Shown here piece by piece: positions 3,375-54,093 of a stretch of 64,000 nt of DNA. This DNA is from an uncultured Flavobacteriaceae bacterium (lineage in GTDB: Bacteria > Bacteroidota > Bacteroidia > Flavobacteriales > Flavobacteriaceae), in the NCBI GenBank assembly GCA_947494565.1, contig CANLVG010000002.1, positions 372,001 through 436,000 on the forward strand, given 5' to 3'. The translations under genes were made by a program, and so were the position numbers. Positions within the stretch are counted from its first letter, which is position 1. Each line of letters starts with the position of its first letter. Under the pieces are notes generated by a model. That model was not told where the DNA came from. It did not search any database and saw only the letters and a list, made by a program, of their open reading frames with translations.

Positions 3375-3740
3375 ATGCAGATATTCATTAACATATTAAT
3401 CGGCCTAGTTGCATTTCTTCACCTATATTTTCTCTATTTCGAGATGTTCGCTTGGACCACCAAAGGACCGAAAATTTTCAGAAGTTTTCCAAAAGACTTA
3501 TTCGAACCCACAAAGGCAATGGCCGCAAACCAAGGCTTGTATAATGGCTTTCTAGCGGCCGGATTGATTTGGACCTACTTCATTGAAACAATAGAATGGA
3601 AGACCAACGTCGCTCTTTTCTTTTTAGGATGTGTGGCCATCGCGGGTATCTTCGGAGCCTTGACGGCCTCGAAAAAAATATTCTTTGTACAAGCTATGCC
3701 AGCACTGGTGGCAATGATTTTAATTTTTCTTACACTATGA
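3375..3740 (+). CDS. DUF1304 family small integral membrane protein
   Basis: 121 residues, almost entirely hydrophobic, with four predicted membrane helices (about 3-25, 50-70, 76-96 and 101-120). The FEMFAWTTKGPKIF segment after helix 1 and the FNGFLAAG-like start of helix 2 (here LYNGFLAAG) are typical of DUF1304. The biochemical role of this family is unknown. It begins five bases after the dioxygenase and its TGA overlaps the ATG of the next gene (ATGA), so all three are probably cotranscribed. Confidence 0.88.
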   Translation: MQIFINILIGLVAFLHLYFLYFEMFAWTTKGPKIFRSFPKDLFEPTKAMAANQGLYNGFLAAGLIWTYFIETIEWKTNVALFFLGCVAIAGIFGALTASKKIFFVQAMPALVAMILIFLTL

Positions 3741-50642: not shown

Positions 50643-52541
50643 ATGAGCGACGCGATCAAACACGAATGTGGCATATCGATTATTCGATTGTTAAAACCTT
50701 TGGAGTATTACAAGGAAAAATATGGTACTGCCTTTTACGGAGTGAACAAAATGTACCTTATGATGGAAAAGCAGCACAATCGCGGTCAAGACGGTGCCGG
50801 GTTTGCGAGCATCAAATTGGATATGAACGCCGGGGAACGTTTCATGAGCCGTGTTCGCTCAAGCGCACAGCAACCGATACAGGATATATTTGCCCAAATC
50901 AATGAGCGCATCAACACTTCACTACAAGAAAACCCGGAATATATTGATGATGTATCCCTTCAGAAAAAACATATTCCATATATCGGGGAGTTATTATTAG
51001 GTCATGTACGTTATGGCACATTCGGTAAAAATAGTATTGAGAGCGTACACCCCTTTCTAAGACAGAACAATTGGATGCACCGCAACCTTATTGTGGCCGG
51101 AAACTTCAATATGACCAATGTTCATGAACTCTTTGATAATCTGGTGCAGTTAGGGCAGCATCCAAAGGAAATGGCCGATACAGTGACCGTAATGGAAAAA
51201 ATCGGACATTTCTTAGACGATGAGGTGGCTAAATTATACAAGCAGATCAAAAAGCAAGGCTATAACAAATTGGAAGCCTCACCCCTGATTGCCGAACGAT
51301 TGAAAGTGCATAAAATCTTAAGAAGGGCCGCCAAAAACTTTGATGGTGGTTATGCAATGGCCGGCCTATTGGGGCATGGAGATGCCTTTGTACTTCGTGA
51401 TCCAGGGGGTATTCGACCAGCATATTACTATAAAGATGACGAAATTGTGGTGGTTGCTTCTGAAAGACCTGCCATTCAGACCGTTTTCAACGTGCCTTTT
51501 AACAAGGTTGAGGAATTAGACCCTGGTCATGCCATCATTATCAAGAAAGATGGAAATACGGCCATTAAAGAGATCTTGGAACCGAAAGAACGGAAGGCCT
51601 GTTCTTTTGAACGGATCTATTTTTCTCGAGGTAGTGACAAGGAAATCTACAAGGAGCGAAAAGAATTGGGGAAATTGTTGTTCCCGAAAATCTTATCGGC
51701 TATTGACAATGACATTCAAAACACGGTGTTCTCTTACATACCCAACACTGCGGAAACCTCGTTTTTTGGAATGGTAATCGAAGCCCAAAATTACCTGAAC
51801 AAGAAGAAGGAAGAGCAAATTCTTTCTATAGGTTCAAAGATTACCAGTGAAGAATTGCATGACATTCTTAAGGTTAGGCCAAGAATCGAAAAGGTTGCCA
51901 TCAAGGATGCCAAATTAAGAACCTTCATTACACAAGACAGTAGTCGAGATGATTTGGTGGCCCACGTATATGATATCTCGTATGGCTCTGTTCAAAAAGG
52001 GGATAACCTGGTTATTATAGATGATAGTATCGTAAGGGGCACCACCTTAAAAAAGAGTATTCTTGGAATTTTAGATCGTTTGTCGCCCAAGAAAATTATC
52101 GTTGTGTCCTCGGCTCCGCAAATACGGTACCCGGATTGCTATGGTATCGACATGGCAAAGCTAGAAGATTTTATTGCCTTTAGAGCTGCCTTACAACTGC
52201 ACAAGGATAACGGTACAATGGACGTCGTAGAAGGCATTTATAAAAAATGCATTGCTCAAGTCAATACCAAAGATTCGGAGATCATTAATTATGTTAAGGA
52301 CTTTTACGCTCCTTTTACCGCAGGTCAAATCTCGGTGAAAATAGGTGAACTACTAAGTCCAAAGGATATCAGAGCCCAGGTAGAGATCCTATACCAAAAT
52401 ATCGAAAACCTCCATCAAGCCTGTCCTAAAAATTTAGGGGACTGGTACTTCACGGGAGATTATCCAACAGCAGGAGGAAATCGAGTTGTAAATAGAGCAT
52501 TTATCAACTTCTTTGAAGGTAAAAATCAACGTGCGTATTAA
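50643..52541 (+). CDS. purF: amidophosphoribosyltransferase, long Bacteroidota form
   Basis: 632 residues, against about 470-510 in E. coli and Bacillus. Commits PRPP to purine synthesis. The N-terminal glutaminase nucleophile Cys follows a short propeptide (KHECGIS, Cys9), and NRGQDGAGFAS is its glutamine-binding loop. The PRPP-binding motif VIIDDSIVRGTTLKKS lies near residue 460, about 90 residues later than usual because of extra segments in the first half. A further 90 residues extend the C-terminus. No iron-sulfur Cys pattern is obvious. The 11-bp inverted repeat after the stop codon has no T-run. Confidence 0.95.
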   Translation: MSDAIKHECGISIIRLLKPLEYYKEKYGTAFYGVNKMYLMMEKQHNRGQDGAGFASIKLDMNAGERFMSRVRSSAQQPIQDIFAQINERINTSLQENPEYIDDVSLQKKHIPYIGELLLGHVRYGTFGKNSIESVHPFLRQNNWMHRNLIVAGNFNMTNVHELFDNLVQLGQHPKEMADTVTVMEKIGHFLDDEVAKLYKQIKKQGYNKLEASPLIAERLKVHKILRRAAKNFDGGYAMAGLLGHGDAFVLRDPGGIRPAYYYKDDEIVVVASERPAIQTVFNVPFNKVEELDPGHAIIIKKDGNTAIKEILEPKERKACSFERIYFSRGSDKEIYKERKELGKLLFPKILSAIDNDIQNTVFSYIPNTAETSFFGMVIEAQNYLNKKKEEQILSIGSKITSEELHDILKVRPRIEKVAIKDAKLRTFITQDSSRDDLVAHVYDISYGSVQKGDNLVIIDDSIVRGTTLKKSILGILDRLSPKKIIVVSSAPQIRYPDCYGIDMAKLEDFIAFRAALQLHKDNGTMDVVEGIYKKCIAQVNTKDSEIINYVKDFYAPFTAGQISVKIGELLSPKDIRAQVEILYQNIENLHQACPKNLGDWYFTGDYPTAGGNRVVNRAFINFFEGKNQRAY

Positions 52542-52548
52542 CCATTTT

Positions 52549-52584
52549 ATCGATGAAATACACCAAAATATGCATTTCATCGAT
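52549..52584. repeat. inverted repeat after purF
   Basis: ATCGATGAAAT (52549-52559) and ATTTCATCGAT (52574-52584) are perfectly complementary with a 14-base spacer. It may protect the purF 3' end or be a regulator site for the first small RNA unit, which begins about 60 bases on. The word TGCATTTCATCGA also occurs after dinB (near 40420). Confidence 0.4.
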
Positions 52585-52633
52585 CATTACTGCTTTTCAG
52601 CGGGTTTTTAGCCGATAGGCAGTGAAGCACACC

Positions 52634-52717
52634 TATTTTAGACTCGCCATAGCATAAGTAGGTTAAGTTCATGGTAAGATTTGGGGCAAAAAAGGTGGAG
52701 GCTACTCCACCTTTTTT
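52634..52717 (+). ncRNA. tandem small RNA unit 1 of 4 (predicted RNA about 52647-52717)
   Basis: A -7-like box TATTTTAG (52634-52641), six bases, then the conserved block starting CCATAGCATAAGTAGGTTAA (52647-52686, 40 bases). It ends in an intrinsic terminator: GGTGGAG (52694-52700) pairs with CTCCACC (52705-52711), followed by six T. RNA length would be about 70 nt. The -33 region is T-rich. The block is nearly identical in all four units while sequences between units are unrelated. Confidence 0.72.
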
Positions 52718-52906
52718 ATTTTAAGCTTATTTTCTTCAGCACCCTACGCCATTCCCTAAAGAGCATCACGCATTCGTTTTTTTGTCGGCACACGTATTAT
52801 TCAAAGTAAGACCACACCCACTTTTCGTCATGAATGATCCATCATGCACTTTAACCAATTAATAGGAAGTTCAACAAGGATTTTTTCCTAACGGATGCAA
52901 CGGTCA

Positions 52907-52988
52907 TACATTTGGAGAACCATAGCATAAGTAGGTTAAGTTCATGGTAAGATTTGGGGAAAAAGGCGGAGCTCAGCTCCGTCTTTTT
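52907..52988 (+). ncRNA. tandem small RNA unit 2 of 4 (predicted RNA about 52920-52988)
   Basis: Exact -7 box TACATTTG (52907-52914) with a T-run 20 bases upstream (52881-52886), six bases, and the same 40-nt block (52920-52959). The terminator pairs GGCGGAGC (52965-52972) with GCTCCGTC (52976-52983), with one G-T pair, and ends in five T. The stem sequence differs from unit 1 while pairing is kept. Confidence 0.75.
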
Positions 52989-53108
52989 ATTTGCGCAAAA
53001 CTTTGGTAGCGTTTCATACGAATTCCTACCGTTTACGTTCAAAAAAAGCATTTCAACTAGGGATATGGACGTTCATCTAAAACCTTTTTACACGACAGCA
53101 TCTTGCCT

Positions 53109-53192
53109 TATTTTTGGAGGACCATAGCATAAGTAGGTTAAGTTCATGGTAAGATTTGGGGAAAAAAGGTGGAGCTCTGCTCCGCCTTTTTT
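53109..53192 (+). ncRNA. tandem small RNA unit 3 of 4 (predicted RNA about 53122-53192)
   Basis: Exact -7 box TATTTTTG (53109-53116) with TTTTT 19 bases upstream (53085-53089), six bases, and the conserved block (53122-53161). The terminator pairs GGTGGAGC (53168-53175) with GCTCCGCC (53179-53186), followed by six T. Confidence 0.75.
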
Positions 53193-53314
53193 ATTATGAA
53201 AACCCTAGTATTTAACAAGGTTAACCTCACTCTTCGGGGCGTAAGGACATGATTTTTGCGAAATGATGCTCTTAAAAAATCCTAAAATTCCTTTTTTATT
53301 TGAGGCAATACCAG

Positions 53315-53397
53315 TAATTTAGTGTTGCCATAGCATAAGTAGGTTAAGTTTATGGTAAGATTTGGGACGAAAAGGGTGGAGGCTTCTCCGCCCTTTT
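53315..53397 (+). ncRNA. tandem small RNA unit 4 of 4 (predicted RNA about 53328-53397)
   Basis: A -7-like box TAATTTAG (53315-53322), six bases, and the conserved block (53328-53367) with only two differences (TTC to TTT, last G to A). The TTT change lets CCATA pair with TATGG inside the block. The terminator pairs GGGTGGAG (53374-53381) with CTCCGCCC (53386-53393), followed by four T. Confidence 0.72.
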
Positions 53398-53420
53398 CTA
53401 TTTTGCGGCGACACCCAATA

Positions 53421-53455
53421 AAAAGGCCCCGTTACCTAGGTAACGGGGCCTTTTT
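53421..53455. terminator. bidirectional terminator between small RNA unit 4 and sodA
   Basis: Perfect 11-bp arms (53425-53435 and 53440-53450, GGCCCCGTTAC/GTAACGGGGCC) with a four-base loop, A-run on one side and T-run on the other. Confidence 0.93.
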
Positions 53456-53484
53456 ATTTAAGCGATCGAACGCCAGATTCTTAA

Positions 53485-54093
53485 TTACTTACCGGCTTCG
53501 TAAAGCGCAGAAACCTTATCCCAATTGATGACATTGAAAAAAGCCTGTACATAATCTGGTCTTCTGTTTTGATAGTTTAGGTAGTACGCATGTTCCCAAA
53601 CATCAAGCCCCAAAATGGGAGTGCCCCCACAGCCATTATCCGGCATCAGTGGGTTATCTTGATTGGGAGTGGAACAAACCTCTACTTGACCTCCTTTATG
53701 AACACAAAGCCAAGCCCATCCTGAGCCAAATCTGGTACCTGCGGCGGCGCTGAATTTTTCCTTGAAACCATCGAAGGATCCAAACGCATCATTAATGGCA
53801 TCGGCCAGTGCACCTGAAGGGGCACCTCCCCCGTCTGGAGACATCACTTCCCAAAAAAGGGAGTGGTTAAAGAACCCACCACCATTGTTACGCACGGCAC
53901 CATTAGACATATCTAAATTGGTCAGAATATCTTCAATGGTCTTGCCTTCTAAATCAGTACCGGCAATCGCGGCATTTAATTTGGAAGTATACCCATTATG
54001 GTGTTTCGTATGGTGGATTTCCATGGTCCTGGCATCAATATGTGGTTCCAATGCGTCATACGCATAGGACAATTGTGGTAATTCAAAAGGCAT
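53485..54093 (-). CDS. sodA: superoxide dismutase (Fe/Mn)
   Basis: 202 residues. Converts superoxide to O2 and H2O2. Metal ligands: first His in HTKHHNGY (the HHTKHH region), second His in [10 protein letters not shown], Asp and His in [13 protein letters not shown]. The wording [17 protein letters not shown] fits the iron or cambialistic Mn type. No signal peptide, so cytosolic. It has its own promoter (54129-54136) and terminator. Confidence 0.97.

Follow-up and report, generated by a model that had tools for sequence, protein, structure and literature searches.

The DNA analysed here, a 64,000-nt window from an uncultured marine Flavobacteriaceae bacterium, contains four tandem units that are likely to be copies of one base-pairing, trans-acting small RNA (sRNA), conserved in the Flavobacteriaceae, that would repress a small gene set and be accompanied by a sponge RNA. 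The sRNA is nearly invariant over 40 nt in many genera and has a predictable purF-sodA locus in Zobellia and relatives. Flavobacteriaceae include major degraders of marine polysaccharides, and to our knowledge post-transcriptional control in the family has been little studied; with named predicted targets, a mutable two-part code and a candidate sponge, sRNA control there becomes directly testable.

The units occupy a gap of about 0.94 kb, bounded by the purF stop at 52541 and the end of sodA at 53485, in which the sole ORF of at least 60 aa is one of 66 aa on the minus strand. The features, in window coordinates, are these:

50643–52541, plus strand: ORF of 632 aa that we take to be a purF-like amidophosphoribosyltransferase gene; upstream boundary of the array, with a homologue beside the array in relatives
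52576–52601, plus strand: unit 1 upstream direct repeats TTCATC (52576) and TTCAGC (52596), at −71 and −51
52634–52641, plus strand: unit 1 promoter box TATTTTAG, from sequence; box position conserved across 399 units
52646–52717, plus strand: sRNA unit 1, predicted RNA, from sequence, alignment and fold; 95.0 bits with covariance model R1
52850–52875, plus strand: unit 2 upstream direct repeats TTTAAC (52850) and TTCAAC (52870), at −70 and −50
52907–52914, plus strand: unit 2 promoter box TACATTTG, from sequence
52919–52989, plus strand: sRNA unit 2, predicted RNA, from sequence, alignment, fold and model R1
53052–53077, plus strand: unit 3 upstream direct repeats TTCAAC (53052) and TTCATC (53072), at −70 and −50
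53109–53116, plus strand: unit 3 promoter box TATTTTTG, from sequence
53121–53193, plus strand: sRNA unit 3, predicted RNA, from sequence, alignment, fold and model R1
53130–53141, plus strand: unit 3 loop segment UAAGUAGGUUAA, block nt 9–20, complement of the target box beside the AUG; same in all four units
53152–53161, plus strand: unit 3 unpaired segment AGAUUUGGGG, block nt 31–40, complement of the upstream target box CCCAAA(UCU); same in units 1 and 2, last base A in unit 4
53315–53322, plus strand: unit 4 promoter box TAATTTAG, from sequence; no upstream direct repeats
53327–53398, plus strand: sRNA unit 4, predicted RNA of the U24 subtype, block ending GGGACGAAAA, from sequence, alignment and model R1
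53417–53459, strand not assigned: long, near-perfect GC hairpin of 43 nt with T-runs on both strands, from sequence; also matched by weak Rfam hairpin models
53485–54093, minus strand: ORF of 202 aa, presumably a sodA-like superoxide dismutase gene; convergent, downstream boundary of the array, with a homologue beside the array in relatives

A sequence-only reading of this DNA had placed four plus-strand units at 52647, 52920, 53122 and 53328, and the sequence, the ORF list and the alignment confirmed them. The TAnnTTTG-like box that it saw just before each block has its last base at −6 in all four units. Also as that reading had it, the 40-nt block is the same in units 1–3 and differs at two places in unit 4, C to T at position 24 and G to A at position 40; this subtype (U24, GGGACGAAAA) is present in many genomes of the genus. 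Folding gave each unit a 5′ hairpin and a 3′ GC hairpin leading into a T-run, with a predicted RNA of about 70 nt, which bore out the stem-loop and T-run described for each unit. The terminator stems differ in sequence, yet each copy in the window still folds, again as described. Of 63 units from this genome and its relatives, 60 measured 67–72 nt from block to T-run. A simple scan flagged only the unit 4 terminator on the plus strand, missing units 1–3 because the T-run forms part of their stem. Each copy has its own promoter box and terminator and no evident coding potential, as judged from sequence, and we infer that the array is transcribed. The hairpin at 53417–53459 is probably a shared terminator of convergent array and sodA transcripts.

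Conservation was followed in 399 distinct units, a set that includes related species and was collected with a pattern fixing positions 1–28 (≤2 changes) and leaving position 29 onward free. Past the search pattern, UA-(A)GAUUU-GGG was almost invariant in this set, save for a one-base length difference. Cells of the 5′ hairpin were 97.5 percent paired in 125 model-aligned units (105 distinct), with one inner pair broken in 22 of the 105; the hairpin varies too little for covariation to prove it. Its stability was no better than that of shuffles (z −0.46 to −0.87), the folding energies of the units being ordinary. The loop around GUAGGUUAA and the segment AGAUUUGGGG are predicted to lie outside the outer stem.

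The expected Bacteroidota promoter, TTG-N19-TAnnTTTG, survived in its downstream half. The exact TAnnTTTG was found in 163 of 399 units and TAnnTT in 351, while TTG near −33 was rare, no single offset between −37 and −33 having it in more than 40 of the 399; only the downstream box is therefore general. A sigma-70 scan, which does not cover promoters of this phylum, found one site against 2.2 expected from shuffles. Sequences between units had been called unrelated, which applies to the different upstream region of unit 4 but not to units 1–3, with their direct repeats at −71/−70 and −51/−50. TTnAnC stood at both positions in 171 of the 341 units not of unit-4 type, compared with at most 18 at any offset away from those two, and both repeats were present in none of the 58 unit-4-type units. 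U24 was found in all 58 of the latter and also in 104 of the 341 others. Since units 1–3 have common upstream direct repeats and unit 4 a different upstream region, units 1–3 are probably co-regulated, answering to one regulator and unit 4 to another. The proposal of separate promoters for graded or condition-specific output is thus half supported, for unit 4 with its different upstream region and not among units 1–3 with their one upstream repeat.

Outside the window, the family is widespread within Flavobacteriaceae. A pattern of the first 21 nt of the block (≤3 mismatches) was matched in 20 of 39 genomes, own included: in 13 of 13 other members of the genus, in six of ten other genomes of the family, and in no genome out of 15 from the order's other families. 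Covariance model R1, built from 51 units, found the family under stricter filters in 99 genomes from an order sample of 393 and in 36 from a phylum sample of 392; these samples overlap, and all matches were in Flavobacteriaceae. Named genomes among the matches listed include Maribacter, Zobellia, Flavobacterium, Aquimarina, Winogradskyella, Muricauda, Cellulophaga and others. Some genera within the family lack the sRNA, e.g. every listed genome of one genus (g28).

Candidate targets emerged when 651 own-genome initiation regions were ranked by complementarity to the block, with genes not chosen beforehand; 19 of the regions were SusC-like, and 0.86 Mb of sequence supplied the 632 others. Four of the best-ranked regions had ACCTACTT beside the ATG and CCCAAA upstream. 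The two boxes, CCCAAA and ACCTACTT just before the ATG, are complementary to the unpaired tail (AUUUGGGG) and the hairpin loop (AAGUAGGU). Exact ACCTACTT within 22 nt of the ATG occurred in five of 651 regions, four of which also had CCCAAA upstream; 500 permuted words averaged 0.16 regions and never exceeded 3. The combination of CCCAAA and AACCTACTT (≤2 mismatches) likewise occurred in five regions, one of them a weak SusC site; 300 permuted pairs averaged 0.36 and peaked at 3, none of them reaching five. AACCTACTT alone (≤1 mismatch) was weaker, with seven regions against a mean of 2.28 and a maximum of 9, and nine of 300 permutations reaching seven. For a 16-nt antiseed through UUCAUGG the genome showed no enrichment (74 matches, four of them the units themselves, vs 94 for the control). 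CCCAAA is possibly situated at the 5′ end of the mRNA and may in part reflect the promoter.

Whole genomes were searched with the pattern CCAAA-N0-25-ACCTACTT-N0-5-ATG, with the reversed pattern as control. The own genome gave 14 rows, eight antisense to the array and six at other sites, vs two for the control. In 14 genomes of the genus a hand tally gave 56 rows (53 distinct sites) outside arrays vs 11 control rows. The 13 family genomes where the sRNA was not found, one of them (G016) only 80 percent complete, showed no excess (7 rows vs 18), and twelve genomes of other families gave 8 rows vs 6. Ten sRNA-bearing family genomes outside the genus, whose RNA block hardly varies, showed little excess (16 rows outside arrays vs 9). 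In the 14 Flavobacterium genomes searched the loop reads AUUAG, with U for A at position 10; there, 14 rows fell outside arrays vs 19 for the control, ten with ACCTACTA and four with ACCTACTT, and none of eight examined loci began a 60-aa ORF, so that the test for a compensatory target change failed. Complementarity to several mRNAs near their start codons is a feature of the genus and Zobellia and is weak elsewhere.

We gathered 44 target-family sites with the pattern from hand-picked loci; box conservation in these alignments is partly guaranteed, because the pattern selected the sites. Thirty-five begin an ORF of at least 95 aa, six are the candidate sponge described below, and three begin 2, 22 and 35 codons. 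Among 11 sites in loci chosen by the tool in the genus and Zobellia, five begin an ORF of at least 100 aa, one is the sponge, one begins a 72-aa ORF and four begin none. No gene starts at any of seven tool-chosen sites in the order's other families, where one ATG lies inside a longer ORF, or at any of six further tool-chosen sites in the family (three in sRNA-bearing and three in sRNA-lacking genomes). The predicted target families are these:

545-aa lipoprotein, in 10 genomes including Zobellia: presumably LVIVD-like, with a weak DUF5074 match below cut-off
147-aa protein with no evident signal sequence, in 9 genomes: unmatched in Pfam, NCBIfam and PDB
159-aa membrane protein, in 3 genomes
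524-aa secreted protein, in 3 genomes
CSKDTD lipoprotein, in 3 genomes: CBM96 in one, and a pectate-lyase-like match below cut-off in Zobellia

A single site in the own genome precedes a DUF5060 protein, and other single sites elsewhere precede mostly exported proteins, export being judged by eye from N-termini. Pfam and NCBIfam searches with nine target proteins each returned few names. In the 545-aa family, whose rows were selected by the pattern, the boxes are nearly constant and the spacer varies in length and sequence. Duplex energies of 13 mRNA leaders, picked for having a site, had z scores of −2.7 to −6.4 relative to their own shuffles.

One class of site has no gene behind it. It reads CCCAAATCTTACC-nnn-CTTAACCTACTTAATGC, runs directly into a GC hairpin and T-run, and has a box such as CATCTTTG upstream. 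This candidate sponge gene was found in at least six of the 14 genus genomes (G000, G001, G002, G006, G010 and G012 with a strict pattern); in the own genome it is intergenic, on the minus strand of contig C6 near 3530–3600. ORFs starting within it are short, 13 to 69 codons, and show no conservation past the terminator stem. Its duplex with the array RNA was −43.1 to −49.5 kcal/mol in six genomes, with z = −8.1 vs shuffles in the own genome. The element looks like a target leader turned stand-alone RNA and, if transcribed, is probably a sponge titrating the array RNAs.

We propose the following mechanism. The 5′ hairpin loop would expose UAAGUAGGUUAA, to be followed by the unpaired AGAUUUGGGG and then the terminator. 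In the genus and Zobellia the loop would pair with ACCUACUU, which adjoins the start codon on its 5′ side, and CCCAAA(UCU), at a greater distance upstream, would be bound by the unpaired segment. The duplex would cover the ribosome entry site, with repression rather than activation as the presumed outcome. The repressed set would be small, mostly exported or lipoprotein genes plus the conserved 147-aa protein. The separately encoded, leader-like small RNA, with its own terminator, would pair with most of the block and titrate the array RNAs, and a regulator bound at the upstream repeats would control units 1–3. A broader formulation, to which we give about equal weight for and against, is of a Flavobacteriaceae post-transcriptional switch, in which a sibling array (three units under one regulator, one under another) reads a CCCAAA/ACCUACUU code in the short leaders upstream of surface-protein genes, a dedicated target-mimic RNA keeping the array itself under control.

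Nearly the entire 40-nt block is invariant across genera, stem and loop alike, and few targets were found outside the genus. Both observations would also fit a protein-binding decoy, an RNA that titrates an RNA-binding protein through its invariant hairpin and tail, the complementary leaders and the second RNA coinciding with it for other reasons. We consider this unlikely: complementary leaders occur in several unrelated gene families, and a dedicated, nearly full-length complement exists.

The units might instead be Flavobacteriaceae sRNAs of the FopS/GibS type, mainly repressing SusC-like glycan transporters by covering their start codons. FopS is also multicopy and from the same phylum, according to the available part of its description (PMC11697453), and UUCAUGGUA-AGAUUU in the block resembles the FopS seed. 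Furthermore AACTTAA, the complement of block nt 17–23, was found in the own genome in 7 of 19 initiation regions of SusC-like genes (−40 to +30) vs 9 of 632 others; in Zobellia, 6 of 20 SusC-like genes have it in the 45 nt before the ATG. The FopS model (RF04319) gave only 22.0 to 22.4 bits on unit 1 and 20.1 on unit 4, against a cut-off of 56 bits, and matched no genome of the own family in the phylum sample of 392. Of 3000 shuffles, 66 and 123 for the two sequences reached the score of the FopS/sRNA alignment. The SusC word enrichment was matched by 43 of 2000 shuffled sRNAs, and by pairing energy SusC genes were not clearly distinct from the rest, 4 to 28 of 60 shuffles doing equally well. 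AACTTAA was found in 3 of 20 SusC-like genes in Flavobacterium, which has the sRNA, and in 0 of 20 in two sRNA-lacking genomes, but base composition differs in this comparison. SusC targeting as the main function is lowered by these energy and shuffle controls and by the stronger ACCTACTT result, and we think it quite improbable; a link to the Bacteroides FopS sRNAs is not established.

SusC-like genes in the own genome and Zobellia often have common leader words such as AACTTAA, frequently at −17 to −20 from the ATG; possibly these are a separate translation signal. The FopS model gave a match of 43.9 bits, below cut-off, in another family of the order (G043:C1:2970447), overlapping a predicted ORF start; it may be chance or a distant relative.

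Copy number and synteny bear on whether the preferred sRNA array could be something other than a set of RNA genes. With ≤3 mismatches over the first 21 nt, the 5.4-Mb own genome has four matches, all in the array, vs two for a reversed control pattern. In 20 hand-picked loci from 18 relatives, purF, two to six units and sodA stand directly in line at 14; of the other six, an additional ORF separates sodA from the units at one, the contig stops short of sodA at another, and four have units elsewhere or sodA alone adjacent. This fixed synteny and the low copy number speak against a mobile or random repeat, the finding that the sequence-only reading had set against itself. That the units are a repetitive DNA element without RNA function, as their several near-identical copies and the few copies elsewhere in some relatives might suggest, is scarcely credible with only four copies in 5.4 Mb, purF-sodA synteny, a box and terminator at each window unit, and stems that diverge while each copy still folds. 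A phage origin was also considered and dropped, as no viral contigs contain the sRNA core. The proposed multi-copy, trans-acting sRNA family is instead supported by conservation in fixed synteny and by predicted targets with sites before start codons.

Some relatives carry extra single sRNA copies away from purF-sodA, and in three genus genomes an extra copy has a GACAGGGG-type terminator stem. In one genus genome (57 percent complete) the array lies between a 309-aa gene and sodA rather than between purF and sodA, and a similar 309-aa ORF lies near an extra sRNA copy in another relative. The order of 309-aa gene, array and sodA may be a rearrangement or an assembly effect.

A search of the whole window against Rfam 15 gave no match at gathering score. 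Flavo-1, which the earlier reading had named for comparison, appeared neither at gathering score nor among 52 weak Rfam matches in the window; the covariance search that this reading had proposed did find the family, through model R1, in many Flavobacteriaceae. STnc40 was rejected at 31 bits against a cut-off of 45, its match resting mainly on the terminator. The core words of the array RNA led to no bacterial paper in the literature searched, matching only two papers, on watermelon and Candida. Because the FopS resemblance is reached by shuffles and the core words have no bacterial literature match, we read the array RNA, with Rfp RNAs compared by description only, as a new family of a known kind, whose predicted circuit is unusually testable.

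RbpB, an RRM-1 protein, associates with FopS. An RRM_1 search of the own genome gave a single match, near the C-terminus of a longer protein (387-aa ORF, contig C13:59391), and found no stand-alone RbpB-like protein. We take the N-terminal part of this ORF to be AlbA-like and the whole to be an AlbA/Schlafen-like predicted regulator, for which a C-terminal RRM_1 would be an unusual fusion.

Several known systems resemble parts of this one. FopS (RF04319) is, in the accessible portion of its description, a multicopy sRNA of Bacteroidota that acts near start codons (PMC11697453), as GibS of Bacteroides thetaiotaomicron also does, per the corresponding portion of its own (PMC7366714). The array RNA shares with them multiple copies, the phylum, sigma-A type promoters, an intrinsic terminator and a model length of 71, and with FopS a seed that acts, or in the array RNA is predicted to act, around start codons and the common word UUCAUGGUA-AGAUUU (PMC11697453, in part). 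It differs from FopS in scoring below the Rfam cut-off, in having tandem units, in its predicted target boxes ACCUACUU and CCCAAA, and in the 5′ hairpin predicted in all four units (no more stable than shuffles), where FopS has a single-stranded 5′ seed. Rfp18 of Flavobacterium psychrophilum was the only Flavobacteriaceae sRNA with a deletion mutant in the literature searched, and like the array RNA it is conserved in Flavobacterium and has predicted secreted-protein targets; it pairs through a third stem-loop, according to the part of the source available, whereas the array RNA has two stem-loops (PMC9723704; Rfp RNAs compared by description only). A likeness in arrangement, with no sequence relation claimed, is to Qrr and its sponge QrrX of Vibrio cholerae, where sibling sRNAs are joined, as proposed here, by a separate titrating small RNA; in the available text those RNAs are placed with Hfq, whereas the candidate sponge described here resembles a target leader (PMC9732341).
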